Positions 5,520 to 37,392 of a stretch of 39,809 nt of DNA are shown here, one piece after another; position 1 is the first letter of the stretch, and each line of letters starts with the position of its first letter. Source of the DNA: Ruminococcus sp. GTDB taxonomy: Bacteria > Bacillota > Clostridia > Oscillospirales > Ruminococcaceae. Below the pieces are notes generated by a model. That model was not told where the DNA came from. It did no database searches and worked only from the letters and a program-made list of their open reading frames with translations. The stretch lies in assembly GCA_017513795.1 (NCBI GenBank), contig JAFXEJ010000143.1, forward strand, positions 1 through 39,809, in the 5' to 3' direction. The translations under genes and the position numbers were made by a program.

Positions 5520-5532
5520 ACTATCTCCTCCG

Positions 5533-8827: not shown

Positions 8828-8829
8828 TT

Positions 8830-8853: not shown

Positions 8854-8860
8854 TTGGTGT

Positions 8861-9226
8861 GTGATGCATATTATGAAAATGAATATATATAAATTAAAGA
8901 AGATCATAGCTGTACTTATTCTCGGAGCAGTCTATTTTATTTTTGCAAAACTGACCGGTTTCGGAATCCCCTGTCCCATAAATCTTGCGTCCGGAAACAG
9001 AATTCAATGTCCCGGATGCGGTATTTCCCGAATGTTCATGCGGCTTGCAGAACTCGATATCGCCGGAGCTTTCCGCTGTAATCAGGCGATTTTTTCACTG
9101 CTTCCGGTGTGGTGTATCTGCATTGTTCTATGGCTTTTCGACAAAGGTGAAAAATTTCTGAAGGCTGTGGGGATAATTTCAGTTATTTTACTTATTCTGT
9201 TCGGTATATGGAGAAATTTCCCCTAA
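8861..9226 (+). CDS. DUF2752 family membrane protein
   Basis: Up to 121 aa. The signature IQCPGCGISRMFMRLAELDI is the CPGCGxxR motif of DUF2752 membrane proteins, preceded by a membrane segment (AVLILGAVYFIFAKL) and followed by two more (FSLLPVWCICIVLW and AVGIISVILLILFG). The start is uncertain: GTG 8861 opens the frame, and ATGs at 8864, 8873 and 8879 are also possible; no strong RBS distinguishes them. The function of the family is unknown. It follows the DUF4234 gene by 33 bp and may share its promoter by readthrough. Confidence 0.78.
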   Translation: MMHIMKMNIYKLKKIIAVLILGAVYFIFAKLTGFGIPCPINLASGNRIQCPGCGISRMFMRLAELDIAGAFRCNQAIFSLLPVWCICIVLWLFDKGEKFLKAVGIISVILLILFGIWRNFP

Positions 9227-9230
9227 GTTA

Positions 9231-9259
9231 TTGCAAATATCTGCAAAATGGTATATAAT
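9231..9259 (+). promoter_or_regulatory. Sigma-A promoter for the cysteine synthase gene
   Basis: TTGCAA (9231-9236) and TATAAT (9254-9259) with a 17-bp spacer, beginning immediately after the stop codon of the DUF2752 gene. Confidence 0.8.
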
Positions 9260-9291
9260 AGTAATGCAGCTTTTTTGAAGGAGATATTTAA

Positions 9292-10221: not shown

Positions 10222-10252
10222 GCTGCAATCATTGGTGATTGATATAATACTG

Positions 10253-10360
10253 GGTTTCCAAATGGTTGATAACCCTTTGGCGAAGTCCAGAGGCAGCGAC
10301 TCTGGTGGGGTGTGGAGTCCCCCCACATAATGCCTTAAAAGCGCTCTGCAAGAGAGAGCG
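10253..10360. repeat. Palindromic repeat block (CCAGAG/CTCTGG type)
   Basis: Three adjacent hairpins: CCAGAG...CTCTGG (10287-10305), GTGGGG...CCCCAC (10305-10326) and CGCTCT...AGAGCG (10342-10360). GC-rich non-coding sequence just downstream of cysK. The form resembles dispersed intergenic repeats of gut Clostridia; no ORF is credible. Confidence 0.65.
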
Positions 10361-10380
10361 TCTCCTTACAACAAAAACAT

Positions 10381-10400
10381 GGACGACCGTCAGGTCGTCC
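10381..10400. repeat. GGACGACC palindrome, copy 1
   Basis: GGACGACCGTCAGGTCGTCC, a perfect-stem hairpin, nearly identical to 10590-10609 (one base different in the loop). It abuts the 86-bp inverted repeat copy. Confidence 0.85.
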
Positions 10401-10484
10401 GAGATTGTCGATAAACATCGTTGTTTGCGGGCGAACACAGTTCGCCCCTACATTCATAATACGTAAAATAGCCATCTGTAGGGG
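10399..10484 (-). repeat. 86-bp dispersed repeat, copy 2 (inverted)
   Basis: Reverse complement of 161-246 with one mismatch over 86 bp. Here it is flanked by other palindromic modules, which suggests nesting or modular assembly of the elements. Confidence 0.93.
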
Positions 10485-10563
10485 ACGGCGCACCTAACGG
10501 GTGCCCGTACCCTCTGTCCTTCGGACATCTCCCTACACAGTAGGGAGTCACCCGACGTCCCAT
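10481..10563. repeat. Composite palindrome with TGTCCTTCGGACA and CTCCCTAC units
   Basis: An outer inverted repeat (GGGACGGCG... with ...CGACGTCCC) encloses CACCTAACGGGTG, TGTCCTTCGGACA (perfect stem, TTCG-type loop) and CTCCCTACACAGTAGGGAG. Four nested hairpins in about 80 bp with no coding potential. It is a distinct module from the 86-bp repeat to its left. Confidence 0.75.
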
Positions 10564-10589
10564 TAATATACAGCTTTTTCTACAGTCTG

Positions 10590-10617
10590 GGACGACCGTC
10601 AAGTCGTCCTTTTTTTA
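10590..10617 (+). terminator. GGACGACC palindrome followed by T tract
   Basis: GGACGAC pairs with GTCGTCC around a 6-nt loop, followed by TTTTTTT, so this second copy of the palindrome works sterically as a + strand intrinsic terminator at the end of the 10222-10628 non-coding stretch. It could end any cysK readthrough before the convergent uvrC gene. Confidence 0.7.
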
Positions 10618-10628
10618 CAACTAATATA

Positions 10629-12452
10629 TCATTCATCATGAATAAGCTTCCACAGTTCCGTTCCTATTTCCTGAGAAACTCCGGCGGCGGCGGCGAGTTC
10701 TTCCGGTGAAGCGTTACTCAGATTTTCCTTTGTCTTATACTTCATCATAAGCTTTGCCGCCTTTTTTTCACCTATTCCACGAACTGACGTCAGTTCCGAG
10801 GCATAGGTTTTCTTTTTATGTCTTGAATGCATAAAGCTTACGGAATATCTATGAACCTCATCCTGTATTCTCGTCACGAGGTTGAACACGGATTTCAGCT
10901 CGTTTATCTGGATTTCCCGTCCCTCAGCAGCGATTGCTCTTGTCCGGTGCTTATTATCCTTGACCATTCCGAAAACAGGAATGTCAAGCCCAAGCTCACG
11001 GATAACCGGCTCAACTGCGTGAACGTGCCCCTTTCCGCCGTCAAGAAGTATCAGATCGGGAGTGCGTGTGAAATACTCATCGCCCTCGCCGGAAACAATA
11101 TGCATTAGTCTGCGCCGCAGAACCTCCTGCATGCTGCCGTAGTCGTTCTGATACTGCTGTTCCTTTATCGTGAATCTCTTGTATGCCTTTTTCAGCGGTC
11201 TGCCGTCCTCGAAGACCACCATTCCGGCTACCATTGATTCTGACGACAGGTTCGAAATATCATACGCTTCGATATATTTCGGTGTTTTTTTCAGTCCGAG
11301 ACTTCTTCCAAGCTGTTCAAGAGCCATGACTTCCTTGCCGGTACGATTGTTTTTCAGAGCGGCATATTCTGCGCTGTTGTTTTTCGCAAGACGCAGAAGC
11401 TCCGACTGCTTTCCCTTCTGAGGAACGTGAAATTTCACCTTATGACCTGACTGCTTCTCCATAAGCTCCTCAAGCAGAACAGCTTCTGCCGGAAGATTTT
11501 CCGTCACGACTGATTTCGGGATATCGCTTCTGCCGTAGTAGAACTGCATCAGGAACGTGCTCAGTATATCCTCTCCGGAATCAGGCTTTTCGAACTCAAA
11601 AACCGCCTTGTCATAGAGCCGGTTTTCACGATACATCAATACGGAAATAAACAATATATCGTCAAATTCTGCGATTCCGACAACATCTGCGGACTCAACA
11701 ACGCTGTTGATTATCTTCTGCTTTTCGGACGCTTTTTTCACGGCGATTATCCTGTCACGAAGCAAAGCGGCTTTCTCGAAATCAAGATTCTCCGCCGCCT
11801 TTTCCATTTCCTGCTGCATACGCTCAACCGATTCGATACTGCCGTTTTTTATGAATTCCACTGCCTGAGCGACGGTATTTTCGTATTCCTCACGGCTGAT
11901 TTTTCCACGGCAAAGTCCCATACAGTTCCTGATATGATAATTCAGACACGGTCTGCCCTTGCCGAAATCTCTCGGAAAAACCTTCGAACAGGTCGGCAGC
12001 ATGAATACACGATTGGCTTCGTTTACAGCTTCCCTGGTGATAAATCCGCTTGTGTAAGGACCAAGATATTTTCCGGCTTCCTTTGTGTTCTTTTCCGTAG
12101 TTATCCTCGGAAATTCTCCGGCTGATATCCTTATATAATGGTATCCCTTGTCATCCTTCAGCAGAATATTATACTTCGGCTTGTGCTGCTTTATGAGACT
12201 GCACTCCAGAAGCAAGGCTTCATATTCGCTGTCAGTCACAATGAAATCGTAGTCAAAAACATTCGATACCATTGCCGCAACCTTCGGCGTATGATCGGGA
12301 TTTTCACGGAAATAGCTGCTTACTCTGTTGCGGAGATTCTTAGCCTTTCCGATGTAAATAATTGCGCTTTCCTTGTTTTTCATTATATAAACGCCGGGCG
12401 AAGATGTCAGCTTCGAGGTTTTTTCACGAAGATAAGGAAGTCTCGGATTCAT
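10629..12452 (-). CDS. Excinuclease ABC subunit C
   Basis: A 607-aa UvrC, the dual-incision nuclease of nucleotide excision repair. The N-terminal GIY-YIG domain shows GVYIMKNKESAIIYIGKAKN with downstream RNRVSSYF. A Cys cluster (CLNYHIRNCMGLCRGK) follows. The UVR domain recognised by UvrB is at about 205-240 (AAENLDFEKAALLRDRI). The RNase H-like endonuclease domain includes ECFDISNLS-like EAYDISNLS, LILLDGGKG and DEVHRYSVSFMHSR, and a C-terminal helix-hairpin-helix includes SVRGIGEKKAAKLM. It is the last gene of the minus-strand Gld-type operon, 11 bp after the preceding gene; GGCGGTG serves as RBS. This coupling is positional and need not be functional. Confidence 0.95.
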   Translation of the reverse strand: MNPRLPYLREKTSKLTSSPGVYIMKNKESAIIYIGKAKNLRNRVSSYFRENPDHTPKVAAMVSNVFDYDFIVTDSEYEALLLECSLIKQHKPKYNILLKDDKGYHYIRISAGEFPRITTEKNTKEAGKYLGPYTSGFITREAVNEANRVFMLPTCSKVFPRDFGKGRPCLNYHIRNCMGLCRGKISREEYENTVAQAVEFIKNGSIESVERMQQEMEKAAENLDFEKAALLRDRIIAVKKASEKQKIINSVVESADVVGIAEFDDILFISVLMYRENRLYDKAVFEFEKPDSGEDILSTFLMQFYYGRSDIPKSVVTENLPAEAVLLEELMEKQSGHKVKFHVPQKGKQSELLRLAKNNSAEYAALKNNRTGKEVMALEQLGRSLGLKKTPKYIEAYDISNLSSESMVAGMVVFEDGRPLKKAYKRFTIKEQQYQNDYGSMQEVLRRRLMHIVSGEGDEYFTRTPDLILLDGGKGHVHAVEPVIRELGLDIPVFGMVKDNKHRTRAIAAEGREIQINELKSVFNLVTRIQDEVHRYSVSFMHSRHKKKTYASELTSVRGIGEKKAAKLMMKYKTKENLSNASPEELAAAAGVSQEIGTELWKLIHDE

Positions 12453-12463
12453 TTTTTCACCGC

Positions 12464-13072
12464 CTACTGCTTGTCAAAATATTTTTTTCCGGCACTCGGT
12501 CTGAAATACGTTCTGATGTATCCGTCCTGTGAGAGAACTACAAATTCATTTGTCTCCTCAAGGTAATAGACGTGATCTTTGTCCTCGGATTCAAGCTTGT
12601 AAAGTGCATCAGGATTGTTGATAACATCGCTTGCGCCCTTTTCGTAATCCTCGGCAGTTCTGTAGTCAAAATCGTCCTCAAACTCGCTGCCGTGCTTGCT
12701 GAAATGATCTTTCAGAAGTCTTTCGTTCCTGAAATAATAATCAACATAGACTGCTTCCGGCTCAGTAGGAGCTTCAGTTGCTCTTACAGTCGTTGTAACC
12801 TTGACGGTTGTCGTTGTTTTTTTCGCTTTTGTTTTTGCTGATGTTTTCTTTGCCGTTGTTTTTACAGCTGTAGTCTTTGCCGGCTTGCTTACGGCTGTTG
12901 TCTGTATTTCCTCGTATTCCGCCGATATTGTCGTTGTAGTTGTCTGAATATCAGAAGAAACAGATGACTGATCGTTTTTATCAGATGAAAGATTTATTCC
13001 GAATATTGCGCCGATAAGGAGCACAAGAACTGACGCTCCTGACGCTGCGATTCCCTTGATTTTCTTGCTCAT
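12464..13072 (-). CDS. Membrane-anchored Thr-rich protein with possible BECR-fold (RNase-like) C-terminal domain
   Basis: A 202-aa protein. Residues 9-27 are a hydrophobic signal anchor, residues 40-105 are an extended Thr/Lys/Ala-rich linker, and residues 110-202 form a compact domain. That domain shows YYFRNERLL, a KH pair (H123, K126, H127), AEDYEKGASDV, NEFVVLSQDGYIRTYFRP and a terminal YF-x-x-Q. The spacing of KH and the late G-x-I-x-T-x-F strand resembles Barnase-EndoU-ColicinE5/D-RelE (BECR) nuclease families; this is pattern recognition, not a search result. Start 13072 is preferred to 13090 because AGAGG stands 8 bases upstream. It sits between the DUF4340 gene and uvrC. No immunity gene is evident. 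Confidence 0.6.
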   Translation of the reverse strand: MSKKIKGIAASGASVLVLLIGAIFGINLSSDKNDQSSVSSDIQTTTTTISAEYEEIQTTAVSKPAKTTAVKTTAKKTSAKTKAKKTTTTVKVTTTVRATEAPTEPEAVYVDYYFRNERLLKDHFSKHGSEFEDDFDYRTAEDYEKGASDVINNPDALYKLESEDKDHVYYLEETNEFVVLSQDGYIRTYFRPSAGKKYFDKQ

Positions 13073-13104
13073 AATTCTACCTCTTTCCATTGGAACTTAC
13101 AAAT

Positions 13105-13126
13105 CAAGGGGGACTAAGCCCCCTTG
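13105..13126 (-). terminator. Intergenic hairpin after the DUF4340 gene
   Basis: CAAGGGGG and CCCCCTTG form an 8-bp perfect stem around a 6-nt loop. There is little T tract, so it may attenuate transcription into the last two operon genes rather than stop it. Confidence 0.6.
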
Positions 13127-13133
13127 TATCTGT

Positions 13134-14528
13134 TTATTTGATATTTGCTACTGATTTGAGAATATCGAAATAATTTCCGACAGAACTGTTGCCGATAAGA
13201 CAATCATCATTGATTATCTCGCCCGTATATTCACCGTCAATGAATACATAGCACTGCTCATTTCCGGCATCGACAAGCTGATAAACAATCTTTGTGCCGT
13301 CTATCATTTCATACTCTGCTGTAAACAGAGGATCTTTAAGCTCCGGCTTGATATCTGTATCAATTTCCTCGACAGTATAGATCGAGAAGGAATTATAGTA
13401 ATTCGTAAGTGCTGTAAGAACACTTGAAACAGCCATCTGGATAGTCTGCTCATTGTAGAAGCACTTCTTCTGCTCATGGTCGAAAGTGAACTCATACTTC
13501 TGATCGTTATAATCAATGCTGAATCCCTTGAGATCATACATAGTCGGATTATAGAGCGTTGTATTTATGAAGTCGATAGGCTCTGAATCAATAAAGTCAA
13601 CGTCTGATCTGAAATAAACCTCAACCTGGTTCTTGTCCTTATTTTCGCCGTCGTAAACAAGGAAGTTAGCATATACATTGTCGTTTGAGAAATCTCCGGC
13701 AATGAGATGACGTTCTGAACCATCCTTGCTCTTTACGATGACCTCTGCATAGGGATCATCGAAACCATACTTCGACATATCTGTAAGATCTTCATCGAGC
13801 ATCTGCTCAGCTTCAAGACGAGTCATTACATTTATCATTGATGTAACTGCTGTTGTATCCAGCTGGAAGGTGTCATATTCCTCAGGAAGACTCCATGCTT
13901 CGGTTTTCTCATCATAAGTCAGATCGCATACGACCTTATCATCTCTGATAACAGTGATCTGATTTACATCTGAGTCGCCGTATTCAACAAGCAGCTTTGA
14001 TTTAAGCATCATTTTATGAGTGCTGAAATTGCTTCCGCTTTCGTAGACTGTGGGCACAGAAAATATCTCTGATCTTCCGTCTACTGTGACATAGTAGCAT
14101 TCCTTTGTGGGAGAAGCGTCACCGATATTTACAGTGTAGCTCTGACCGCCGCCGCTCATAGTAATTGTGCTGATATTTTCCTGATTAAGCCCATACACTT
14201 CAGGCTCTCCGCTGTGCGTAGCCATAGCAGTAAGGCTTGAAAAATAAGTACAGATAAGATCCATATAGTCCTGATCGGGAACGAAATCTCCGCCTTCTGC
14301 AAGTACCCATTTGTCATCCTCGCTTACTACTGTGTAGCTTCCGTCAGGATTTGTGATCTCAATCTTGTCGATCGACTGTGAATCAAAGCGGAACAGGTTA
14401 AGGTCAGCTATTTCCTTTTCCTGCTGCTTTGTTTCCTTTTCTTTTTTATCTCTGACCTTCATGAAAACTCCCACGGAGCCTCCTGCTGCTAAAAGAAGTA
14501 TCAGAAATGCAATAATATGTTTTTTCAT
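13134..14528 (-). CDS. DUF4340 domain-containing protein
   Basis: A 464-aa protein with one N-terminal membrane segment (AFLILLLAAGGSVGVFM) and a large extracytoplasmic part. The repeating beta pattern beginning FDSQSIDKIEITNPDGSYTV, then DKWVLAEGGDFVPD, is typical of DUF4340. The ATG at 14528 has AGGAG 7 bases upstream and is preferred to an in-frame TTG at 14534. It follows the GldG-like gene by 34 bp; GldG and DUF4340 proteins often occur together with ABC-2 transporters and probably form an envelope-facing complex. No enzymatic motif was seen. Confidence 0.82.
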   Translation of the reverse strand: MKKHIIAFLILLLAAGGSVGVFMKVRDKKEKETKQQEKEIADLNLFRFDSQSIDKIEITNPDGSYTVVSEDDKWVLAEGGDFVPDQDYMDLICTYFSSLTAMATHSGEPEVYGLNQENISTITMSGGGQSYTVNIGDASPTKECYYVTVDGRSEIFSVPTVYESGSNFSTHKMMLKSKLLVEYGDSDVNQITVIRDDKVVCDLTYDEKTEAWSLPEEYDTFQLDTTAVTSMINVMTRLEAEQMLDEDLTDMSKYGFDDPYAEVIVKSKDGSERHLIAGDFSNDNVYANFLVYDGENKDKNQVEVYFRSDVDFIDSEPIDFINTTLYNPTMYDLKGFSIDYNDQKYEFTFDHEQKKCFYNEQTIQMAVSSVLTALTNYYNSFSIYTVEEIDTDIKPELKDPLFTAEYEMIDGTKIVYQLVDAGNEQCYVFIDGEYTGEIINDDCLIGNSSVGNYFDILKSVANIK

Positions 14529-14562
14529 TATCAAGCTCCTAAGTGGTTTTCATAATCCTGTA

Positions 14563-16140
14563 TTATGCGTGACGTCTCTTAAGCCATACAAGTACGCCGA
14601 TAATTGCCACACAGACCGGAACAATAACAGTGATAGCGATTGCTTTTGTAGCCTCATTTCCGTCCTTGAAGGTCATCTTGTCGATAGCTTCCTTCTTAAC
14701 GTCAACACCGGCGGATACTTCTGTATCATAGAGCCATGTGTTTGAGAAAAGTGCAAGCATATTTGAAGCATTTATCGACGGAGAAAGGTGATCTGCGTCG
14801 ATCATGTCTGTAGAACCGAAAAGAACTATCTTACTGTCATTTGTCTTGTTGTGTGAGTAGTATGCATAAGCAAGCTGATCTCCTGTAAGTCTTTCAGCTT
14901 CGGCAGCTGTGACATTGTCGCCGCCCATTGCGATACTTTCTGTAGTATAGCCGGAATAAGTTGTCATTCCTTCAACAGTCTCGGAATCTCCGGGAATATT
15001 TTCGATAAGCGAAGCTCTTTCGAACTGCTCATACTGCGGGAACTTATCATCGGGAATTCTTCCCACACTTCTTGTGTTTGAGATACCTGCTGAGAATCCT
15101 CCCTCGTTGCAGAGAGTGATTACGTCAGTTGTGAGATCAACTTTAAGATCCTCGGAAGGAAGCATGTAGTGAATTCTCATAATCTCAGGAAGCTGCTTGT
15201 TCTTGATATCGTAAAGCATGTTTACGGTATTTGTTTCCTTAACGAGGTTGTAGTCCATTGTAAGACCGTACTCGTAGAGAATTTCCTCGATATTGTCGAA
15301 AGTCCCCTCTGTATCGCAAGGCGCCATAAAGAATGCAACTGAACCGGGATTTACAGGGTTGCTGAGGTATCCTTTAAGAAGCGTCTTTTCGTTGTCTGTG
15401 ATATCTGTCTGAGGACCGGCAATACAGATTATCTCAGCATTTGCCGGAATTGCGCTTGCTTCGTCAAGGTTGAGTTCCTTTACGTCGTAGGTGTTTGCCT
15501 TGAGACGGTTTGCGTATACCAGATATTCATCTTCAATAGACTTTTCACCGTGTCCTGTGAGGAAGTATACAGTCGGGAGAGAGCCGTTTGTAACGATCTT
15601 GATAGCGTTGGCTATCTGTTCTTCACCGGCATAGTCAGAAGTCTTGTTTGTTTCGTTGTAATTCTGGAATATCATGTGCTTGTTGACTTTTTTTACAACA
15701 TCGCCGCATTTTACGAAGATATCGCCAGACTCAACACCGTGGATTCCTGTAGGATCAAGTTTCTTTGCCTTTTCAGGTTCATCATTCGGATCAAAGGTGA
15801 TAAGCTCGATATTGTCGTATGCGTCAAGTCTCGTAAGAGTGTGATAGAGAGGAAGATATGAAGGATCCTCTTTAAGACCTCTGAGCTCTGCAAGGAAGTA
15901 AACCTCAATATCCTTGTCCTTGTTTTCTTCAACAAGATCTACAGTCACGGAATCAAGAGTGTACTTCTTGTTGGGAGTCATATCATAAAAGTCGTCATAA
16001 TAAGAAATGATAAGATTTATCGGCACGAATACGAGAAGAACGAGAAACGCCATAACGAAAGCAATCGGGCCGGAAAGATTTATCTTCTTCTTTTTTGCCT
16101 TGTCAAGATTTAAAACTTCTTTTTCTTTTTTGTTTTCCAT
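14563..16140 (-). CDS. GldG-like ABC transporter auxiliary protein
   Basis: A 525-aa protein with an N-terminal membrane segment (IAFVMAFLVLLVFVPINLII), a large extracytoplasmic domain and a C-terminal membrane segment (AIAITVIVPVCVAIIGVLVW) followed by basic residues. The extracytoplasmic part has YFLTGHGEKSIED, a hallmark of GldG/ABC_transp_aux proteins, and LFGSTDMIDADHLSP near the end. Start ATG 16140 follows GGGGGT that overlaps the end of the permease gene. The partner permease and ATPase lie immediately upstream. In Bacteroidetes GldG belongs to a gliding-related ABC complex; in this Firmicute no gliding role is implied and the substrate is unknown. Confidence 0.85.
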   Translation of the reverse strand: MENKKEKEVLNLDKAKKKKINLSGPIAFVMAFLVLLVFVPINLIISYYDDFYDMTPNKKYTLDSVTVDLVEENKDKDIEVYFLAELRGLKEDPSYLPLYHTLTRLDAYDNIELITFDPNDEPEKAKKLDPTGIHGVESGDIFVKCGDVVKKVNKHMIFQNYNETNKTSDYAGEEQIANAIKIVTNGSLPTVYFLTGHGEKSIEDEYLVYANRLKANTYDVKELNLDEASAIPANAEIICIAGPQTDITDNEKTLLKGYLSNPVNPGSVAFFMAPCDTEGTFDNIEEILYEYGLTMDYNLVKETNTVNMLYDIKNKQLPEIMRIHYMLPSEDLKVDLTTDVITLCNEGGFSAGISNTRSVGRIPDDKFPQYEQFERASLIENIPGDSETVEGMTTYSGYTTESIAMGGDNVTAAEAERLTGDQLAYAYYSHNKTNDSKIVLFGSTDMIDADHLSPSINASNMLALFSNTWLYDTEVSAGVDVKKEAIDKMTFKDGNEATKAIAITVIVPVCVAIIGVLVWLKRRHA

Positions 16141-16146
16141 CAAAGT

Positions 16147-16893
16147 TTACCCCCTCTTCCAGCGTCTCTTCTCAATGGAGATGTAAGTCCACGCAAGAAG
16201 AACGATAATTGCTGATATAAAGAATATCAGGTCAGAACGTCTGATAACGCCCTGTGAGAAATAGTGGAATCTTGACTGAGCTGCAAATGCGATAAGCACA
16301 GACTGAAGTTTCGGGAACTGGCTGATAAATGCAGTATAAGCGAAGTCGTCAAGGAAAAGGAATACAAACATTACAAGTTCACCGATAATAGCCGCAATGA
16401 TAGAGCTTTCAGTGAAGGATGATATGAGCATTCCGAGTGTAATAAACATTGTTCCCCAGAAGAAGAAACCGATATATGCGCAGATAAGCTGGCTTTCGAT
16501 AACGCCGCCGCCCTCGCCGGCATAATGCTCTGTAATTATCGGGAAAATAGCTGTTCCAGCGAGCATGAAGATGAAAACAGTAACATTTGCAAAGAATTTT
16601 CCCATAACGATTTTGAAAACGCTGACGGGAGAAGTCATAAGCAGAACTTCGGTTCCGAATTTTCTCTCATCCGCAAAAGTTCTCATTGTGATAAGCGGAA
16701 TAAGGAACATAAAGAAGAAAATTACATCATAGAATATACTTACAAAAGGAACAAGAACGGTATTTCCCGATTCAAGCGAACCAATCTTGTTTGCGAATAT
16801 GTAAGTGAAAAGAAGCATAAACAGTGCAGTCAGTGCATAAGCAAAAGGTGTATAGAAAAAGGACTGCAGTTCCTTTTTATAGATCGAAAACAT
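16147..16893 (-). CDS. ABC-2 type permease (GldF-like)
   Basis: A 248-aa integral membrane protein with six predicted hydrophobic segments, beginning MFSIYKKELQSFFYTPFAYA, the usual start of GldF-type ABC-2 permeases. A RTFADERKFGTEVLLMTSPV segment is the typical cytoplasmic coupling region after the second membrane segment. Its ATG at 16893 directly abuts the stop codon of the ATPase gene, so the two are translated as a unit. It would form the channel part of the ABC complex with the GldA-like ATPase. Confidence 0.88.
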   Translation of the reverse strand: MFSIYKKELQSFFYTPFAYALTALFMLLFTYIFANKIGSLESGNTVLVPFVSIFYDVIFFFMFLIPLITMRTFADERKFGTEVLLMTSPVSVFKIVMGKFFANVTVFIFMLAGTAIFPIITEHYAGEGGGVIESQLICAYIGFFFWGTMFITLGMLISSFTESSIIAAIIGELVMFVFLFLDDFAYTAFISQFPKLQSVLIAFAAQSRFHYFSQGVIRRSDLIFFISAIIVLLAWTYISIEKRRWKRG

Positions 16894-18471: not shown

Positions 18472-20979
18472 ATGATTAGCAAAAAGAACAAGGCTCTCGT
18501 TGCTGGAATTCTCGCAGCAGCTACTTCTGCTTCAGCTGTAATGCCTGTAATGGGTTCAGCAGCTACTGAACCGACTAAGTACGCTACAGAGAACGGCGCT
18601 AACGAAAGCTACGCTGCAATGTTCGAGTCACTTTACGACGACGTTATCACTAACGGTCAGGCAAGCGGCTATCTCAGCAAGCAGAACAACGGCGGCGATT
18701 CATTCGGTATTCCTTACCACGCTAAGGAAACTCTCGTTATCGAGGCTCCTGACTACGGTCACGAAACAACATCTGAAGCTATGTCCTACATCGCTTGGGT
18801 AACAGCTATGCACGATGTTCTCGTTAAGCAGGGCGTTATCGACGGTTCTGCTGGCGACCTCGAAAAGGGCTGGAAAACTCTTGAAGCTATCATTCCTGGT
18901 TGGTCTGAGGCTTCAGGCATCAACAAAACAATCAAGTATGACTCTATCTGGCAGCAGGCAAGACTCAAGGCTGATACAGCTAAGGAGCTCGACCTTCCTG
19001 AACAGTATCCTACATCCAACGTTGGTGTAGACGCTATCAACCCGATCTTCAGCGAAATGAAGTCCAGCTACGGCGGTGACAATGGTTACTACCTCATGCA
19101 CTGGCTCGCAGACGTTGATGACTGGTACGGCTTCGGCGGCGGCAACGGCAACTTCACATTCATCAATACATTCCAGCGTGGTGAGCAGGAATCCTGTTTC
19201 GAAACAGTTCCTCATCCATGTATTGAAGAACTCAAGTATGGTAACACATCTGACGGTGTTAAGGGTATCTTCAACGGCGTAGGCAACGTTGCTCCTCAGT
19301 ACGCTTTCACAAACGCTCCTGACGCTGAAGACCGTGCTATCCAGGCTATCTACTTCGCTAATCAGTGGGGCGTAGACTGCGGCGAGCTTTCTGGTCTTGC
19401 TGGTAAGATGGGTGACCAGTGCCGTAACGACATGTTCGATAAGTACTACCACGCAATCGGCTGTCAGGACATCCAGTCTTCAGGCAGCGCTGGCACAAAG
19501 TCTCAGCACTACCTCATGGCTTGGTATACATCATGGGGCGGCGCTCTCGATAAGTATGACTGGGCATGGCAGATCGGATGCTCACATTCACATCAGTTCT
19601 ATCAGAACCCCCTCGCTGCTTACGCTCTCGTAACTGACGAGTGGATGAGCAGCGGTATGCAGTCTTCTAAGGCTGTTGCTGACTACGAAGAGTCTCTCAA
19701 GAGACAGGTTGAAATGTACCTCTGGCTCCAGTCTGTTGAAGGTCCTTTCGCAGGCGGATGTACAAACTCTTACAGAGGACGTTATGAGAAGTATCCGGCT
19801 GGATACCCAACATTCTATGAGATGGTTTACGTTCCCCACCCTGTATACGCTGACCCGGGTTCAAACCACTGGATCGGTAACCAGGTATGGTCAACACAGC
19901 GTCTTGCTGAGCTCTACTACTATGTAGCTACAAAGGGCGATACAAGCGGAGTTAAGCCTGCTGGTATGTCACTTGAAGAAGCTCTCGACGTACTCCTCGA
20001 AAGATGGATCTCTTGGTTCGAAGAGAACACACACTTTGATTACGCTACAGAAGATGGTAAGATTCTCTCTTACTGTATTCCTTCTAACCTCGACTGGGGT
20101 GACAATGATACAGACTACTCATGCGCTCCTGACACATGGACAGGTGAGTATGATCCTAACGGCAACCAGAACCTCCACTGCGAGATCACTGGTTACGGTC
20201 AGGGAGATATCGGTTGTGTATCTTCACTCTGTAACACTCTTATCTACTACGCTGCTGCTAAGGGCATTCCTGCTTCTGAAGCACAGGAAGCAACAGCTAA
20301 GGATGATTCAGTAGCTGCTAAGGGTCTCCGTCTTGCTAACAGACTCCTCACTTATCAGTGGAATCAGGGCCGTGATGATATCGGTATCGCATTCGAAGAC
20401 AGCAACGGAAGCCTTAAGAGAGTATTCACACAGGATGTTTACATTCCTACAAACTACAGCGGTAAAATGCCTGATGGTTCACCTCTTGAGAACGGTGCTA
20501 CATTTATCTCCATCCGTCAGAGCTACGAGAAGGATCCTATGTTCCAGGAACTCAAGAAGGTTTACGACGCTACTAAAGAAACAAAAGACTACAAGTTCAA
20601 GCTCCACAGATTCTGGCATATGGGTGACGCTCTTATGTCCTACGGTGGTATGGCACTTCTCTATCCTGATGTTGAGCCTTACAAGGACGGCGATATTCCT
20701 GACGATCCAGATCCAGTTCCTGGCGCAACTCTCTGGGGCGACGCTAACTGCGACGATCAGGTTCTCCTGAACGACGCTGTACTCGTTCTCCAGTCTCTCG
20801 GTAACGCTGACGCATTCGGCGAAAACGGCTCTGATGCTAACCGCATCACAGCTCAGGGTATTGCTAATGCTGACGTTTATGAGAACGGCACAGGCCTCAC
20901 AAACTCTGACGCTCTCCAGATCCAGAAGTACTGCCTCAAGCTCGTTGCTTCTCTCGATCCTAAGGATTTCGTTAAGTAA
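18472..20979 (+). CDS. Cellulosomal GH48 cellulase (processive cellobiohydrolase) with dockerin
   Basis: An 835-aa secreted enzyme. The signal peptide covers residues 1-30 (MISKKNKALVAGILAAA..., cleavage near GSA-A). The GH48 catalytic domain runs to about 740; EAPDYGHETTSEAMSY at 91-106 contains the family-conserved TTSE Glu (E102) believed to be the catalytic acid. An Asp/Pro linker (740-751) leads to a dockerin at 752-835: calcium loop 1 is DANCDDQVLLND, loop 2 DVYENGTGLTNSD, one residue longer than the canonical loop. No carbohydrate-binding module is present. GH48 enzymes release cellobiose from cellulose chain ends and are the main cellulosomal exoglucanase. The RBS is GAGAGGGG. Codon use is strongly biased (GCT, CTC, AAG, TAC), unlike neighbours, which points to very high expression. 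Confidence 0.96.
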   Translation: MISKKNKALVAGILAAATSASAVMPVMGSAATEPTKYATENGANESYAAMFESLYDDVITNGQASGYLSKQNNGGDSFGIPYHAKETLVIEAPDYGHETTSEAMSYIAWVTAMHDVLVKQGVIDGSAGDLEKGWKTLEAIIPGWSEASGINKTIKYDSIWQQARLKADTAKELDLPEQYPTSNVGVDAINPIFSEMKSSYGGDNGYYLMHWLADVDDWYGFGGGNGNFTFINTFQRGEQESCFETVPHPCIEELKYGNTSDGVKGIFNGVGNVAPQYAFTNAPDAEDRAIQAIYFANQWGVDCGELSGLAGKMGDQCRNDMFDKYYHAIGCQDIQSSGSAGTKSQHYLMAWYTSWGGALDKYDWAWQIGCSHSHQFYQNPLAAYALVTDEWMSSGMQSSKAVADYEESLKRQVEMYLWLQSVEGPFAGGCTNSYRGRYEKYPAGYPTFYEMVYVPHPVYADPGSNHWIGNQVWSTQRLAELYYYVATKGDTSGVKPAGMSLEEALDVLLERWISWFEENTHFDYATEDGKILSYCIPSNLDWGDNDTDYSCAPDTWTGEYDPNGNQNLHCEITGYGQGDIGCVSSLCNTLIYYAAAKGIPASEAQEATAKDDSVAAKGLRLANRLLTYQWNQGRDDIGIAFEDSNGSLKRVFTQDVYIPTNYSGKMPDGSPLENGATFISIRQSYEKDPMFQELKKVYDATKETKDYKFKLHRFWHMGDALMSYGGMALLYPDVEPYKDGDIPDDPDPVPGATLWGDANCDDQVLLNDAVLVLQSLGNADAFGENGSDANRITAQGIANADVYENGTGLTNSDALQIQKYCLKLVASLDPKDFVK

Positions 20980-30729: not shown

Positions 30730-33114
30730 ATGGATAAAAACATTGGCAAAAAGCTCGACGGAAGATACGAGATAACCGAACTTATCGGCGTCGGCGGAAT
30801 GGCTGAGGTGTACAAGGGCGTTGATGTTATCGACAACAAGACCGTAGCCATCAAGATTCTGAAAAAAGAATATGCAGAAAATGAAGAATTCCTGCGCAGA
30901 TTCAGAAATGAATCAAAGGCAATTGCAGTTCTTTCACACCCTAACATCGTAAAGATATATGATGTCGGATTTTCTGAGAAAATTCAGTATATCGTCATGG
31001 AATACATCGACGGTATTACTCTCAAGGAATACATCGAGGAGGAAAAAGTCCTCACATGGAAGGATACTGTTCACTTCGTAATACAGATTCTCAGAGCTTT
31101 GCAGCATGCCCACGACAAGGGTATAGTTCACCGTGATATCAAGCCGCAGAACATCATGATGTTCACTGACGGTACTATCAAGGTCATGGACTTCGGCATT
31201 GCAAAGTTCGCCCGTGAAGAAGGAAAGACAGCTACCGATCAGGCTATCGGAAGCGTTCACTATATCAGCCCTGAACAGGCAAGCGGAAACGTTACTGACG
31301 CAAAGAGCGATATCTACTCCGTAGGCGCTATGATGTACGAGATGCTCGCTGGAAAAAAGGCTTTCGACAGCGATAACCCCGTTGCTATTGCAGTTATGCA
31401 CATGCACGATATTCCGGAGCGCCCAAGAGCAATCAACCCTGACATTCCGGACGGTCTTGAAGAAATTGTTCTCAGAGCTATGGAAAAGAAGCCCGAGGAC
31501 AGATATGCAACAACTGCTGATATGATCGCTGATATCGAGAAATTCAAGGCTAATCCTTCTATTTCATTCGGATATTATCAGGAAGAAGATGATACATCCG
31601 CTGATGATACGATCAATTTCAGCGCTCCTGTAGGCAATGAAACTTATCCCGAAGTTGCAGACAGCAATGATTCTGCATTTGCTCCGGTTGGCGCAGCTGT
31701 TGCAGCAGGCGCAGGAGCAGCCGCTTATGCAGGCGCTTCAGCAGCTCAGAGATATGCTCCTCCGCAGAAGCCTATAACCTACAAGGATTACTACGACGAC
31801 GAAGACGATGATGATGACGATGAAGAACGTTCATCACTTGTTATCCCTGTACTTACCGCTGTTGTAGTTGTAGTAATTATCGTTGCTGTTATCTTCGTTG
31901 CAACGATGCTCAGCGGTCTTCTTAAAGGCGACAAGGCTAAGAACGACTACAAAATGAACGACTTCACAGGCATGGATTACAACACAGCTCAGAGCAAGTA
32001 CGGTAACAATATCAAGTTTAACGTTGAAGGCTATGAGTTTGACGCCGCTGATGAAAATACTATCATCTGGCAGAGTATTGATCCCGGCTCTGAATACAAA
32101 AAAGGCGATACGCTGAGAGTAAAGCTCAGTAAGGGACAGGAAAAAACTACAGTTCCTGATATCGTTGATATGAATCAGGCACTTGCTGAGGATCAGATAA
32201 GAATGAAAGGTCTTGAACCAAAAATCATCACTCAGTCTGATCCGGTAATCAAAGAAAACAACGTAATCAAAACTGAACCAAAGGCTGGCGAAGAAGTACA
32301 CAAGGGCGATACGATTCTTGTGTATGTCAGCATGGGCGCAAATACAGAACAGATCGAAGTTGAAAGCTATGTCGGCATGGACGCCAAGGATGCCGTTGCT
32401 ATTGCACAGTACAAGGGACTTAAAGTCAAGACAGACACTAAGGACTCCTATGAAGACGAAGGCAAGGTTGTTGAACAGAGCATCGCTAAGGGAGAAAAAG
32501 TAGAACAGGGTACAGAAATTATCCTCTACATCAGTACAGGTGTAAACCCTGAGGGAGAAATTCCGTTCACTGTAAACTTCCCTGTTGACGCAAAGGGCAG
32601 ATTCGTTATCGACTTCATCCTCAAGGGCGAGGAAAACAGAACAACTACAATTTCATCATCCAATCTTATCGTTCCTGAAATGCCTTCATGGACTCAGGAT
32701 ATCAAGGGTGCCGGCGAAAATGTTCTTGTAACTGTTTCACTCACAAATCTCAATACCGGCGCAAATGCAAACATCGGAACTTATTACTTCAATTTTGCTG
32801 CTGGCACGGTAGAAGCAATCAGCGAGGACGTTGACTACGCATTCATGCTTGTCGGCGGATTCCCTGAGCCGGAAGAACCCGTAACTGATCCTCCTGTTGA
32901 GGAGCCTCCTGTTGAGGAGCCTCCTGTTGAAGAACCTCCTGTAGTTGAGCCTCCTGTTGAGGAGCCTACTTCTCAGGAACCTCAGCCTGGATATGTTCCC
33001 GGTGTTGACGGTGAATATCACCTTACAACAGGCGAATGGATTCCATATCAGCCCGGTGTAAACGGTGACTGGGTAACTCAGGATACAGGCGAAACCATCT
33101 GGGTATGGTATTGA
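30730..33114 (+). CDS. PASTA-domain serine/threonine kinase (PrkC/Stk1)
   Basis: A 794-aa membrane kinase. The cytoplasmic kinase has the glycine loop GVGGMAEVYKG (20-30), ATP Lys K42, HRDIKPQN (catalytic D136) and DFG (D154). An Ala-rich and then Asp/Glu-rich juxtamembrane region precedes one membrane segment (~370-393). Three PASTA units follow at about 410-473, 474-540 and 541-605; these normally bind peptidoglycan fragments. A further extracellular domain and a Pro/Glu repeat (~720-745) lead to an aromatic tail ending WVWY. Its stop overlaps the rsgA ATG (TGATG). Substrates cannot be read from the sequence. Confidence 0.95.
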   Translation: MDKNIGKKLDGRYEITELIGVGGMAEVYKGVDVIDNKTVAIKILKKEYAENEEFLRRFRNESKAIAVLSHPNIVKIYDVGFSEKIQYIVMEYIDGITLKEYIEEEKVLTWKDTVHFVIQILRALQHAHDKGIVHRDIKPQNIMMFTDGTIKVMDFGIAKFAREEGKTATDQAIGSVHYISPEQASGNVTDAKSDIYSVGAMMYEMLAGKKAFDSDNPVAIAVMHMHDIPERPRAINPDIPDGLEEIVLRAMEKKPEDRYATTADMIADIEKFKANPSISFGYYQEEDDTSADDTINFSAPVGNETYPEVADSNDSAFAPVGAAVAAGAGAAAYAGASAAQRYAPPQKPITYKDYYDDEDDDDDDEERSSLVIPVLTAVVVVVIIVAVIFVATMLSGLLKGDKAKNDYKMNDFTGMDYNTAQSKYGNNIKFNVEGYEFDAADENTIIWQSIDPGSEYKKGDTLRVKLSKGQEKTTVPDIVDMNQALAEDQIRMKGLEPKIITQSDPVIKENNVIKTEPKAGEEVHKGDTILVYVSMGANTEQIEVESYVGMDAKDAVAIAQYKGLKVKTDTKDSYEDEGKVVEQSIAKGEKVEQGTEIILYISTGVNPEGEIPFTVNFPVDAKGRFVIDFILKGEENRTTTISSSNLIVPEMPSWTQDIKGAGENVLVTVSLTNLNTGANANIGTYYFNFAAGTVEAISEDVDYAFMLVGGFPEPEEPVTDPPVEEPPVEEPPVEEPPVVEPPVEEPTSQEPQPGYVPGVDGEYHLTTGEWIPYQPGVNGDWVTQDTGETIWVWY
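32890..32966 (+). repeat. Tandem 15-bp repeats encoding PPVEE in prkC
   Basis: CCTCCTGTTGAGGAG is repeated about five times with minor changes and encodes PPVEE-type units in the extracellular tail of the kinase. Such a tract is prone to length changes between strains. Confidence 0.85.
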
Positions 33115-33992
33115 TGAACAGCACTGTAAAAAGCGGAATTATAACGAAATGCTTAGGGGGACTCTATACAGTAGAGTCCCCTGACGGCATATTCAGCTGC
33201 AAAGCAAGAGGTGTTTTCCGCAGCAAGGGCATTAGTCCGTGCGTAGGCGACAGCGTGGAATTTCAGGACGAAGTGATAACCGCTGTGGCTGAACGCAGAA
33301 ATTGCATTATCCGACCCCCTCTTGCAAATCTCGATCAGCTTATTTTTATTGTTTCCACATGCGATCCGGCACCTAATTATCTTCTGCTTGACAAGTTCAT
33401 TGCCATCGCAGAATACAAGGGTATCAAGCCGGTAGTTGCCGTTACAAAGACCGACCTCGGCAGCAGCAGCGATATAACCGATATCTACGGAAAAATAGGC
33501 ATTGACGTCATTGAAATAGACTACAGCGACAAAAATACTATCGACGCTGTGAAAAATATCCTTACCGGAAAAATCAGCGCATTTACGGGAAATTCCGGTG
33601 CCGGAAAATCAACTCTGCTCAATGCAGTTGATCCGACGCTCGATATCCCTACAGCTGAAATCAGCAAAAAACTTGGCAGAGGACGTCACACAACACGTCA
33701 TGCGGAGCTTTACAAGCTCGAAAGCGGCGGATATATCGCCGATACTCCGGGATTCTCCACCTTTGAGACAAACCGCTACGACATCATCCGCAAGGAAGAA
33801 CTCGCCGGATGCTTCCGTGAAATGGCTGAATTTACCGATCAGTGCCGCTTCAAGGACTGCTCTCATACCTGTGAAAAAGGCTGTGCAGTACTTGACGCTC
33901 TCGGTGAAGGAAAGATTTCCGAAAGCCGCCACACAAGCTACTGTACGATGTACGACGAGGCAAAACAACTCAAGGAGTGGGAGCTTAAATGA
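33114..33992 (+). CDS. Ribosome small-subunit-dependent GTPase RsgA
   Basis: A 292-aa circularly permuted GTPase that checks 30S subunit maturation. N-terminal OB fold, then the G4 motif VTKTDL, the P-loop GNSGAGKSTLLNAV, G3 motif DTPGFSTF, and a C-terminal zinc site CRFKDCSHTCEKGC. The ATG at 33114 overlaps the kinase stop; an in-frame ATG at 33105 would add three residues. In B. subtilis the homologue CpgA is a PrkC substrate and also adjacent to prkC. The rpe gene usually found next is missing here. Confidence 0.94.
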   Translation: MNSTVKSGIITKCLGGLYTVESPDGIFSCKARGVFRSKGISPCVGDSVEFQDEVITAVAERRNCIIRPPLANLDQLIFIVSTCDPAPNYLLLDKFIAIAEYKGIKPVVAVTKTDLGSSSDITDIYGKIGIDVIEIDYSDKNTIDAVKNILTGKISAFTGNSGAGKSTLLNAVDPTLDIPTAEISKKLGRGRHTTRHAELYKLESGGYIADTPGFSTFETNRYDIIRKEELAGCFREMAEFTDQCRFKDCSHTCEKGCAVLDALGEGKISESRHTSYCTMYDEAKQLKEWELK

Positions 33993-34615
33993 AAAGATGC
34001 CATATTTTTGCCGGCGGCGATCTCGGAAAAATCGACCGGTCATGGTTTTCCACACACCACGGATTTATCATTTGTGCCGACAGCGGCTACAAGCATGCAG
34101 TAAATCTCGGTCTTGAACCTGATATCATCGTGGGAGATTTTGATTCCTATACCGGCAGACTTCCGGAGAATACCGAGATATACCGTACTGTTCCGGAAAA
34201 GGATGATACCGACACGCTCATGGCTGTGAAAATCGCTATAGAACGTGGATATGATCTGATCTATCTTTACGGTGCGATAGGAGGTTCACGCTTCGATCAT
34301 GCTTTTGCGAATATCCAGACCATGATATACGCCCACGAACACGGAGCAAAGCTCATCTGCATCGGTGACGAAAATATATATCTGCAAGGTGCCGGAGAAG
34401 CTATGTATCCCCGTGGAAAAAAGTACGGCGAAAAGTATTTCTCTGTGTTTGCCGTTACTGATACGGTGAAAATCAAAAGTCTCAGAGGAGTAAAATATCC
34501 CCTTGAAAATTACGATATGAAGCCATCATTCCCCATAGGAGTGAGCAATGAGATTACCGAGGGGCAGGCTTTCCTTGATATTGAATACGGTCTTGCACTT
34601 GTCATTCAGTCGTGA
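33989..34615 (+). CDS. Thiamine pyrophosphokinase
   Basis: A 208-aa enzyme that converts thiamine to thiamine diphosphate. Motifs: IICADSGYKHAVNLGLEPDI, VGDFDSY, EKDDTDTLMAVKIA and YGAIGGSRFDHAFANI, all standard for ThiN. It overlaps rsgA by 4 bp (ATGA). Its position just before spoVM matches B. subtilis. Confidence 0.94.
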   Translation: MKRCHIFAGGDLGKIDRSWFSTHHGFIICADSGYKHAVNLGLEPDIIVGDFDSYTGRLPENTEIYRTVPEKDDTDTLMAVKIAIERGYDLIYLYGAIGGSRFDHAFANIQTMIYAHEHGAKLICIGDENIYLQGAGEAMYPRGKKYGEKYFSVFAVTDTVKIKSLRGVKYPLENYDMKPSFPIGVSNEITEGQAFLDIEYGLALVIQS

Positions 34616-34673
34616 AGTAACAAAATTCCTTCCTGTGAATATAATGTTATATCACGATAAGGAGGAACAGCTT

Positions 34674-34760
34674 ATGAAGGTAGTTGTTATCAAAAGCCCG
34701 AAATTTCTCTCAGGAATTCTCAGAGTCATATTCAGAATAAAAAAGGAAGACTGTGAATAA
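34674..34760 (+). CDS. Stage V sporulation protein M (SpoVM) homologue, 28 aa
   Basis: A 28-codon ORF: MKVVVIKSPKFLSGILRVIF then RIKKEDCE. Aligned without gaps to B. subtilis SpoVM (26 aa), it keeps M1, K2, I6, K7, P9, K10, F11, L12, G14, I15, R17 and D26, including Pro9, which shapes the curvature-sensing amphipathic helix. AAGGAGG (34659-34665) stands 8 bases before the ATG. It occupies exactly the B. subtilis locus position after thiN. SpoVM marks the convex forespore membrane and anchors SpoIVA for coat and cortex assembly. It is too short for most gene finders. Confidence 0.9.
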   Translation: MKVVVIKSPKFLSGILRVIFRIKKEDCE

Positions 34761-34865: not shown

Positions 34866-34956
34866 AAAGTGTAATTGTGCTTTTGTACAAAAAGGCAGCT
34901 CTGCGCAAGGCTTGTTCAGCGCCGCCTAAATCAATTTTATGAAAAGAGGAAAACAA

Positions 34957-36234
34957 ATGCCTGCTAATATTGTTATCGGAACTCAGTGGGGAGATGAAGG
35001 AAAGGGTAAAATCATTGATATCCTTGCTTCCCGTGCAGACGTAGTCGTTCGTTCACAGGGCGGTAATAATGCCGGTCATACTGTTGTAAACAACGGAGAG
35101 GTCTACAAGCTTCACCTTATCCCCTCTGGTATTCTCTATCCGAATACTCTCTGCCTTATCGGTGCCGGAGTTGTACTCGATCCCAAGGACTTCATCGGCG
35201 AGCTTGACAGTCTTGCTGAAAGAGGTATCGTAACTGAGGGACATCTTAAAATAGATCCCCGTGCTCATGTTGTAATGCCATGGCACATCACTCTTGATGG
35301 ACTTTCTGAAGCTTTCAGAGGCGGAAAGGATATCGGCACAACAAAGCGTGGCATAGGCCCTACATATATGGATAAGTATGAACGCTGCGGAATCAGAATG
35401 TACGACCTTATCCACCCCGAAGTTCTTGCTGAAAAAATCCAGTCAACCGGCAAGCTCAAGAATAAGATTATCACTGAAGTTTACGGCGGCGAAGCTTTCG
35501 ATCTCGACGCTGTAACTGCTGAATACATCGAATACGGCAAGCGTCTTGCTCCTTATGTTGATGACGTTTCAGTTCTCACATTCGAAGCTGACAAGGCTGG
35601 AAAAACTATCATGTTCGAGGGTGCTCAGGCTACTCTCCTTGATATCGACTATGGTACATATCCCTATGTTACTTCCTCCCACCCTGTTTCAGCAGGCGTA
35701 TGCGTAGGAACAGGCGTAGGCCCTAAGGTTATCACAAACATCATCGGTGTTGCAAAGGCTTATACTACCCGTGTAGGCAAGGGACCTTTCCCGACAGAGC
35801 TTGATGACGAGATCGGCGAGCGTATCAGAAATGTCGGCGGTGAATTCGGTACTACTACCGGACGTCCAAGAAGAACAGGCTGGTTCGATGCTGTTATCAT
35901 CCGTCACTCCGTAAGAGTAAACGGTCTTGACAGCCTTGCTATCAACAAGCTTGATACACTTTCCGGTATTGATACACTCAAGATGTGCGTAGCTTACAAG
36001 AAGCCCGACGGCACTGTAACTGAGCACTTCCCGGCTGCTCTTGAAGATCTTGAAGGCTGCGAGCCTGTATATGAGGAATTCCCCGGATTTACTGAGGATA
36101 TCTCAAAGTGCGCAAGCTTCGACGAGCTTCCTGAGAACTGCAAGAAGTATATCGCTCGTCTTGAAGAACTCGTAGGATGTCATGTAAGCATGGTAGGTAT
36201 CGGTCCTGACAGATCACAAATTCTCGAAAGATAA
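34957..36234 (+). CDS. Adenylosuccinate synthetase
   Basis: A 425-aa enzyme for the first committed step from IMP to AMP (IMP + Asp + GTP). N-terminal GTQWGDEGKGKIIDIL (P-loop and catalytic Asp/His region), GGNNAGHTVV, GTTKRGIGPTYMDK, and GTTTGRPRRTGW. Full length. ATG 34957 follows AGAGG and gives the family start MPANIV; an ATG at 34939 would add six residues. It has its own promoter and is separated from the spoVM operon by a terminator. Confidence 0.95.
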   Translation: MPANIVIGTQWGDEGKGKIIDILASRADVVVRSQGGNNAGHTVVNNGEVYKLHLIPSGILYPNTLCLIGAGVVLDPKDFIGELDSLAERGIVTEGHLKIDPRAHVVMPWHITLDGLSEAFRGGKDIGTTKRGIGPTYMDKYERCGIRMYDLIHPEVLAEKIQSTGKLKNKIITEVYGGEAFDLDAVTAEYIEYGKRLAPYVDDVSVLTFEADKAGKTIMFEGAQATLLDIDYGTYPYVTSSHPVSAGVCVGTGVGPKVITNIIGVAKAYTTRVGKGPFPTELDDEIGERIRNVGGEFGTTTGRPRRTGWFDAVIIRHSVRVNGLDSLAINKLDTLSGIDTLKMCVAYKKPDGTVTEHFPAALEDLEGCEPVYEEFPGFTEDISKCASFDELPENCKKYIARLEELVGCHVSMVGIGPDRSQILER

Positions 36235-36282: not shown

Positions 36283-37392
36283 ATGAACGATGGAAACAAC
36301 TTCGGCGGCTCTCCGCTGGACGAAATTGAATACAATACTCCCGAAAAGAAAAACGGTATATCTCAGAATGTAACTGCGCCGGTTCTTGACGACATAGATT
36401 ATGTTGCTCCGACATCGAAAAAGGACGGCCCTCAGGGAGTTTCTGCTCCTGTACTCGATGACATGGCATCATATTCCCCCGATACATCGAAAAAAGGCGG
36501 TCCCACCGGTGTTTCCGCTCCGGTGCTGGATGATGCAGATACTCCGTATCAGTCCTCTGAGCCTGAAAAGGTTGTCATGACCGATGAGGAGATAATCGCC
36601 GGATTTACTCCGGATCAGCTTGAAACATTCAACAAGCTTCCCGCTGCAAATCAGCAGAAGGTTCTTGATTTAAGACGTTCACAGCTTGGAGTTGAAGCTC
36701 CTAAGCCTGTTGTCACAGCACCCGTTCTTGACGAGGACAATTATACACCTCCCCCGAAAAAGGAAGAACCTCCGAAGCCGGCTGAGCCGATAACTGCTCC
36801 GATTCTTGATGACGCTCCGGAACCGACAAAATACGTTCCCAAATTCGTTGACGAGGATCTCGAAAGAGCCAAAAGAGAAGGCGCAAAAAAGGCTGTATCT
36901 TCCCAGCTTGTATCAGATCAGAAGGATTCAAAGGAAAGTCTGCGAATGATGCTTCAGCTCAAGGAAGAACGCAGAGCCGAGCTTGCCAAGAAGGGCTTCA
37001 AGGTATCTCTTATCATCGCATTGATAGGCATTATCGCCGCAGTAGCATTCTATCTGCTTTATTCCGGAACGATTGTCGGTTATGATAAGGATTTCAGCGG
37101 CATGGGCGAAACTGTTAAAGAATGTTCACTGTACATCGCCGCTATCATGGGAATAGTTTCATTCCTTCTCGTTACGGGCGTCGGCGCATGCAAATCGTTT
37201 GCTTCGCTTGTATATGTGCTGTCTGGTATAATACAGCTATTCCCCGGAGTAGTCATGATACCGCAGCATGATGGAAATATGGCTGTTGTAGGAATTCTCT
37301 ATGGTGTATCGCTTATCTGCACTGTACTTGCGTTCTTCATGCTTTCTTCAAGTGAAGCCGTAGGACTTTACTTCAAAAAAGACAGCGATTGA
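36283..37392 (+). CDS. APVLDD-repeat protein with four C-terminal membrane segments
   Basis: A 369-aa protein of no recognised family. The N-terminal half is disordered and Pro/Asp-rich, with a short motif [TS]APVLDD at residues 31-37, 54-60, 78-84, 145-151 and 171-177 (the last APILDD), plus a degenerate copy near 10-16. A small helical segment at 99-133 (DEEIIAGFTPDQLETFNKLP) separates repeats three and four. A charged helix (~190-238) leads to four membrane segments at about 241-260, 283-303, 306-325 and 335-355. The ATG at 36283 follows GAGGTG. It lies 48 bp after purA. Repeated identical motifs suggest a multivalent docking site in the cytoplasm; the partner is unknown. Confidence 0.75.
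   Translation: MNDGNNFGGSPLDEIEYNTPEKKNGISQNVTAPVLDDIDYVAPTSKKDGPQGVSAPVLDDMASYSPDTSKKGGPTGVSAPVLDDADTPYQSSEPEKVVMTDEEIIAGFTPDQLETFNKLPAANQQKVLDLRRSQLGVEAPKPVVTAPVLDEDNYTPPPKKEEPPKPAEPITAPILDDAPEPTKYVPKFVDEDLERAKREGAKKAVSSQLVSDQKDSKESLRMMLQLKEERRAELAKKGFKVSLIIALIGIIAAVAFYLLYSGTIVGYDKDFSGMGETVKECSLYIAAIMGIVSFLLVTGVGACKSFASLVYVLSGIIQLFPGVVMIPQHDGNMAVVGILYGVSLICTVLAFFMLSSSEAVGLYFKKDSD

Follow-up and report, generated by a model that had tools for sequence, protein, structure and literature searches.

The window analyzed here, a 39,809-nucleotide stretch of DNA from Ruminococcus sp., contains a tiny open reading frame of 28 codons situated between the gene for thiamine diphosphokinase (thiN) and purA, and this ORF was assigned as spoVM. 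The order of genes in this part of the window is rlmN, PP2C phosphatase, PASTA kinase, rsgA, thiN, spoVM and purA, and the features of relevance to the assignment are the following:

18472-20979: GH48 cellulase gene (602 bits)
30730..33114, plus strand: PASTA-domain Ser/Thr kinase (NF033483, 550.7 bits)
33105..33992, plus strand: rsgA, ribosome-associated GTPase (TIGR00157, 201.9 bits)
33989..34615, plus strand: thiN, thiamine diphosphokinase (TIGR01378, 133.5 bits, cut-off 76.4), the conserved upstream neighbor
34618..34624, plus strand: putative sigma-E -35, TAACAAA, 13 nt before the -10, 6/7 to KMATAWW, in a conserved block
34638..34645, plus strand: putative sigma-E -10, AATATAAT, with GAATAT conserved there in 76/79 regions
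34659..34665, plus strand: Shine-Dalgarno sequence AAGGAGG, similar in 26/26 loci of the genus
34674..34760, plus strand: spoVM, 28 codons plus stop, assigned by NF033436, conservation and selection
34939..36234, plus strand: purA (PF00709, 607.6 bits), the downstream neighbor

The GH48 gene supports the label "cellulolytic" that the initial annotation gave to the genome. By ThiN identity, Ruminococcus sp. MAGs are closest among the named records (97% and 95%), followed by records of R. flavefaciens from 81% downward; the close relatives of the window are R. flavefaciens-type records, unlike R. bromii. Two ORFs in the window (1946-3616 and 36283-37392) were without any Pfam match, and the former, which directly follows a sigma-70-family ORF, might encode the corresponding anti-sigma factor.

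The assignment of the ORF as spoVM was based on the NCBIfam model NF033436 (SpoVM_broad), which it matched at 55.8 bits (E 3e-15) relative to a cut-off of 31 and for which it was the sole match in the whole genome from which the window derives (E 9e-14). Two other models did not reach their cut-offs on this ORF: Pfam PF08183 (SpoV) scored 11.8 bits against a cut-off of 20.6, with no match anywhere in the genome, and PRK14741 scored 18.9 against a cut-off of 55. The score of PF08183 indicates that the Pfam SpoV model does not accept this clade, and the conclusion to which that model alone would lead, a genome without SpoVM, was overturned by NF033436. The SpoVM family is already established and has its own named model, and this gene is an unsurprising member of it; what is added here is the clustering of the coat genes spoVM, sipL and spoIVA, the inserts in sigK and the sigma-E-like element.

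In an ungapped comparison with SpoVM of B. subtilis (a query sequence of which residues 1-21 were confirmed by the PDB 2MVH alignment), 12 of the first 26 residues were identical, including K2, I6, P9, G14, I15 and R17. The window contains 1277 stop-free stretches of 26 codons with an ATG, GTG or TTG start, and the runner-up among them had 7 identities. A search of solved structures matched only PDB 2MVH and 2MVJ, both Stage V sporulation protein M, at weak E values of 0.04 and 0.73. The window peptide thus has all four of K2, I6, Pro9 and I15; PMC5607322 associates Pro9 with the recognition of curvature in B. subtilis, I6 with the binding of SpoIVA, and both K2 and I15 with the cortex checkpoint. 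The differences from the B. subtilis peptide are VVV at positions 3-5 in place of FYT, a basic tail of RIKKED in place of GSFRKD and a length of 28 rather than 26 residues. Residues 10-23 have a hydrophobic moment of 0.70, a value that was equalled by 3% of shuffles. A longer ORF of 70 residues, opening at an in-frame ATG at 34548 within thiN, was also considered, but a Shine-Dalgarno-like sequence lies immediately upstream of 34674 in all 26 of the genus loci, which favors that position as the start. Each of the properties on which the initial annotation had founded its proposal of a SpoVM homolog, namely the ungapped resemblance at 12 of 26 positions with Pro9 retained, the good ribosome binding site and the location behind thiN, was confirmed, as was the homology itself.

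SpoVM was identified in 24/25 genomes of the genus, in all 24 above the cut-off, and the one genome in which it was missing is 79% complete. Across the family it was found in 169/197 genomes (148 above the cut-off) representing 85/95 genera, with at least three of the matches listed having a stop inside the matched stretch. Among named Ruminococcus-type loci, 69/80 have SpoVM within 700 nt after thiN, including those of the cultured R. flavefaciens strains FD-1, 007c, YL228, MA2007, XPD3002 and YRD2003; of the 11 named loci without SpoVM, three stop no more than 180 nt past thiN, and the other eight have room for the gene and gave no match. Conservation of the ORF in related genomes, on which the initial annotation had made its proposal depend, was thereby established in the genus genomes and in the named loci. 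Pairwise pN/pS values for the window spoVM versus 25 genus loci were 0.07-0.30 over 25 codons, as obtained from a simple count uncorrected for multiple hits, and show that purifying selection acts on spoVM across the genus.

At the level of individual residues, K2, P9, G14 and R17 were invariant in the named loci, whose 68 full-length peptides were found with a profile built from extracted peptides, and I6 was present in 64 and I15 in 39 of these. An earlier pattern was restricted to peptides with K or R at position 2, a proline at position 9 and one of G, A and S at position 14; the invariance it returned (50/50) was therefore partly by construction and is given no weight here. It caught 26/27 genus loci (L067 was missed) and 24/26 other family loci (the exceptions being L021, which has Pro at 14, and L025). 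Variation was greater in more distant members of the family: in ten family clusters of spoVM and spoIVA that were read without the pattern, Pro9 was retained, but position 2 was Q in three clusters and position 14 was P or C in four. In L067 (G219:C24) spoVM reads through position 1, with Thr in place of a usual start codon.

The association with thiN is also conserved, as thiN lies upstream of spoVM on the same strand in 25/26 genus loci, the exception being L024 in genome G195, with a gap of 55-87 nt in 24 loci and of 241 nt in one. Similarly, rsgA is upstream in 25 of the 26 genus loci, and thiN precedes spoVM in 20/24 other loci of the family. The presence of purA downstream in only 3/26 genus loci places it outside the conserved unit. 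We take thiN to precede spoVM in B. subtilis as well, where a ribulose-phosphate epimerase gene presumably stands between rsgA and thiN. An ORF that appears by eye to be ribulose-phosphate epimerase-like was seen at 455-1111 of locus L040 (G000:C89), adjoining sigK.

The 95 available thiN-spoVM upstream regions collapse to 79 that are distinct, and in 76 of these GAATAT occurs no more than 75 nt from the start codon, another conserved block being located about 20 nt upstream of GAATAT. To score these regions we used a pattern based on the B. subtilis sigma-E consensus, KMATAWW followed after 13 to 15 nt by MATANNWT, with at least 5/7 and all 6/6 defined positions matched. An element of this type was present upstream of spoVM in 69/79 regions, versus 102/1580 shuffles and 165/4000 native background windows, the first base of the -10 having been relaxed to A or C after looking at the sequences. 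A plain scan for CATAnnnT was not enriched (9/95 versus a shuffled mean of 12), and the enrichment depends on admitting either A or C as the first base of the -10. The element was also found before spoIIIAA in 13/17 regions (shuffles 17/340), with 7/7 and a spacing of exactly 14 nt in 8/17; before sipL it was present in 4/5 (shuffles 11/100). In the spoVM regions a spacing of 13 predominates, and TAACAAA, the -35 in the window, is a conserved departure from the consensus; set beside the B. subtilis sigma-E consensus, the promoter has a -35 type of its own. After the comparison with spoIIIAA and sipL, sigma-E was preferred to sigma-A as the reading of this element, and spoVM is probably under sigma-E control. 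In B. subtilis spoVM requires SpoIIID in addition to sigma-E, according to PMC5607322, and our guess is that the weak -35 before spoVM would fit an activator. The -10 of the element common to spoVM, spoIIIAA and sipL often starts with A and not C.

The proteins with which SpoVM would be expected to work were identified in the same genome, with spoVM on contig C143 and the genes for the two partners on C33. SpoIVA, whose presence had been set as a check on the assignment, is full-length at 705 bits (cut-off 459.9), with its ATPase, middle and C domains each above the respective Pfam cut-off. Directly upstream of spoIVA and on the same strand is sipL, encoding a protein of 517 residues (101 bits, cut-off 23.6) in which LysM was just below its cut-off (19.3 versus 20.9). 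Among 197 family genomes, 165 have both SpoVM and SpoIVA, 4 have SpoVM alone, 15 have SpoIVA alone and 13 have neither, eight of the genomes having been placed by elimination; this co-occurrence has a Fisher p of 9e-10, uncorrected for relatedness. Among the matches listed, which cover 150/169 SpoVM genomes and 149/180 SpoIVA genomes, spoVM and spoIVA are less than 4 kb apart in 22/126 genomes with both, compared with ~0.6 expected by chance. In all ten of the family clusters examined (L045-L054), which were picked for the closeness of spoVM and spoIVA, sipL is located between the two genes; thiN precedes spoVM within 120 nt in four of these clusters and at ~0.5 kb in a fifth.

The remainder of the sporulation gene set in this genome was represented by matches at a range of scores. 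Spo0A (218 bits), SpoIIR (TIGR02837, 158) and SASP (74) were above their cut-offs, and SigE (338.9, cut-off 348.6), SpoVAC (162.6, cut-off 164), a SigG-like factor (366.8, cut-off 372) and YlbJ (TIGR02871, 103, cut-off 304.65) were below theirs. SpoIIGA, which adjoins SigE, was above the Pfam cut-off (160 bits) and below that of NCBIfam (116). SpoIIIAA (193.6, cut-off 281.3) is followed in order by AB, AC, AD, AE, AF, AG and an ORF at the place of AH: SpoIIIAB was below the NCBIfam cut-off (45.5) and above that of Pfam (80.2), SpoIIIAC was above its cut-off, SpoIIIAD, AE and AG were below theirs, SpoIIIAF was weak (E 0.008) and the SpoIIIAH model had no match. The many spore proteins under NCBIfam cut-offs indicate that the programme is divergent from the models. 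The initial annotation had named spo0A and sigE as genes to be looked for and had inferred that a spore-envelope programme is kept; both genes were matched, SigE below its cut-off, and at the level of genes the inference held, given SpoIVA, Spo0A, SigE, SpoIIGA, SpoIIR, SpoIIIA, SpoVAC and SASP, several of them below cut-offs. With spoVM and these many other spore genes in the genome, members of a genus described as non-spore-forming probably would retain the ability to form spores.

We conclude, at a probability of roughly 0.88, that the ORF is spoVM and that its peptide likely binds the curved forespore membrane, where it is predicted to recruit SpoIVA together with SipL, probably under the control of sigma-E. 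This explanation is based on the family model, conservation, purifying selection, the co-occurrence with SpoIVA, the clustering of the genes in relatives and the shared promoter-like element. Curvature sensing through Pro9, SpoIVA binding through Ile6 and the timing by sigma-E are attributed to this peptide by analogy with B. subtilis and C. difficile. By that analogy the peptide, with its basic N-terminus, Pro9 and putative amphipathic stretch (residues 10-23), would insert into the outer membrane of the forespore from the mother-cell side, favoring positive membrane curvature and holding SpoIVA there; SpoIVA would then polymerize as the base of the spore coat, onto which SipL would tie the outer coat. 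The C. difficile SpoVM provides a clostridial counterpart that is sigma-E controlled and works beside SpoIVA and SipL, as reported in PMC5607322. The same source describes modest effects of the loss of SpoVM in C. difficile, where the protein is largely dispensable; in view of this, and of the 15 SpoIVA-bearing family genomes (of 180) that have no SpoVM match, SpoVM need not be essential in this organism.

Other explanations for the ORF and its surroundings were weighed against the spoVM assignment. That it is a chance small ORF resembling SpoVM could be argued from its mere 28 codons and its rejection by the Pfam model, but the genome-wide E value, the occurrence in 24/25 genus genomes, the synteny and the selection reduce the likelihood of this to a negligible level. 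We regard it as very improbable that the lineage has given up sporulation and that a SpoVM-derived peptide, expressed from a sigma-A promoter (GTAACA-17-TATAAT), now has a vegetative membrane role. It is true that the upstream element holds a perfect TATAAT 17 nt from GTAACA, and that the genus is described as non-sporing, the consulted portion of PMC5359413 stating that Ruminococcus species do not produce endospores. However, SpoIVA, SASP, SpoIIR, SigE and SpoVAC are retained in the same genome, SpoVM and SpoIVA co-occur, and the same type of -10 stands before spoIIIAA (13/17) and sipL (4/5).

A relic, in which SpoVM and its partners are present and the programme has recently lost a step so that no spores are formed, also appears unlikely to us, given the purifying selection on spoVM across the genus, the finding in this genome of the spore genes that were searched for, the SpoIIIAH model apart, and the record in the available text of PMC4890681 of 1% spore bodies by TEM in the isolate 'Ruminococcus flavefaciens_93%'. 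Consistent with such a loss are the divergent scores of many spore proteins, the under-representation of sporulation Pfams in rumen genomes that PMC6118326 (Hungate1000) describes, and R. albus 7, which in the portion of PMC3533761 consulted is listed without spoIIR, spoIIIAB and spoIIIAF among others. 

The literature searched treats SpoVM together with Ruminococcus in PMC3533761, which notes that annotations seldom recognize SpoVM and that the protein could not be found in some clostridia. In R. bromii (PMC5814915) ruminococcal spore genes were accompanied by spores in microscopy; the term spoVM is absent from the main text of that report. The formation of spores by ruminococci has been described as meriting study (PMC7801112, as far as its available text goes).

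Further evidence on the programme in this genus came from sigK, which in two congeners was found to be split at one identical site, RCI-ENEIL, by inserts of about 8.5 kb in G195 and 5.5 kb in G209:

L042 (G195:C13), 7416-16647: sigK with insert, containing a large serine recombinase and HTH genes
L043 (G209:C60), 5064-11390: sigK with insert, containing a large serine recombinase and HTH genes

In each insert the large serine recombinase gene adjoins the 3' half of sigK and has the same direction, and the two enzymes share 64% identity over 583 residues. The flanks of sigK would, by eye, rejoin in frame, and the inserts resemble the skin element known from B. subtilis and C. difficile. A literature search for a skin or intervening element in sigK of Ruminococcus turned up no report among the texts consulted, the sigK intervening element treated in PMC5154133 being that of C. 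difficile; PMC11406385 also matched the search. The inserts support a working programme in the genus without proving it, because sigK would simply be disrupted by an insert that is never excised. Taking the inserts together with the coat module, we see a somewhat better than even chance that the cellulose-degrading Ruminococcus form spores cryptically and have a coat module (spoVM, sipL and spoIVA) under active selection, and that some species would activate the last mother-cell sigma factor by a programmed rearrangement, the excision of a 5.5 or 8.5 kb skin-type element from sigK.

Ruminococci, which are among the main fiber degraders of the rumen and gut, are strict anaerobes that pass between hosts. 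Given a coat anchor under selection, together with its partners and its sigma-E-like promoter, transmission by spores becomes a directly testable hypothesis in the R. flavefaciens group. With the upstream element, the sigma-E regulon of Ruminococcus could be mapped, and excision of the sigK element of the two congeners could serve as a DNA-level assay for sporulation where spores are rare.

In the genome of the window itself, sigK is also in two pieces, and the idea that a skin element splits it there was rejected: the gene is continuous across the insertion site, and its two pieces stop simply where the contigs end, a single codon being absent between them. Intact sigK was read by pattern in 2/9 loci, the other seven having escaped the pattern. 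In a third congener, possibly with another insert in sigK (L044, G217:C85, 5621-5962), the 5' part of the gene stops early and other genes lie behind it.
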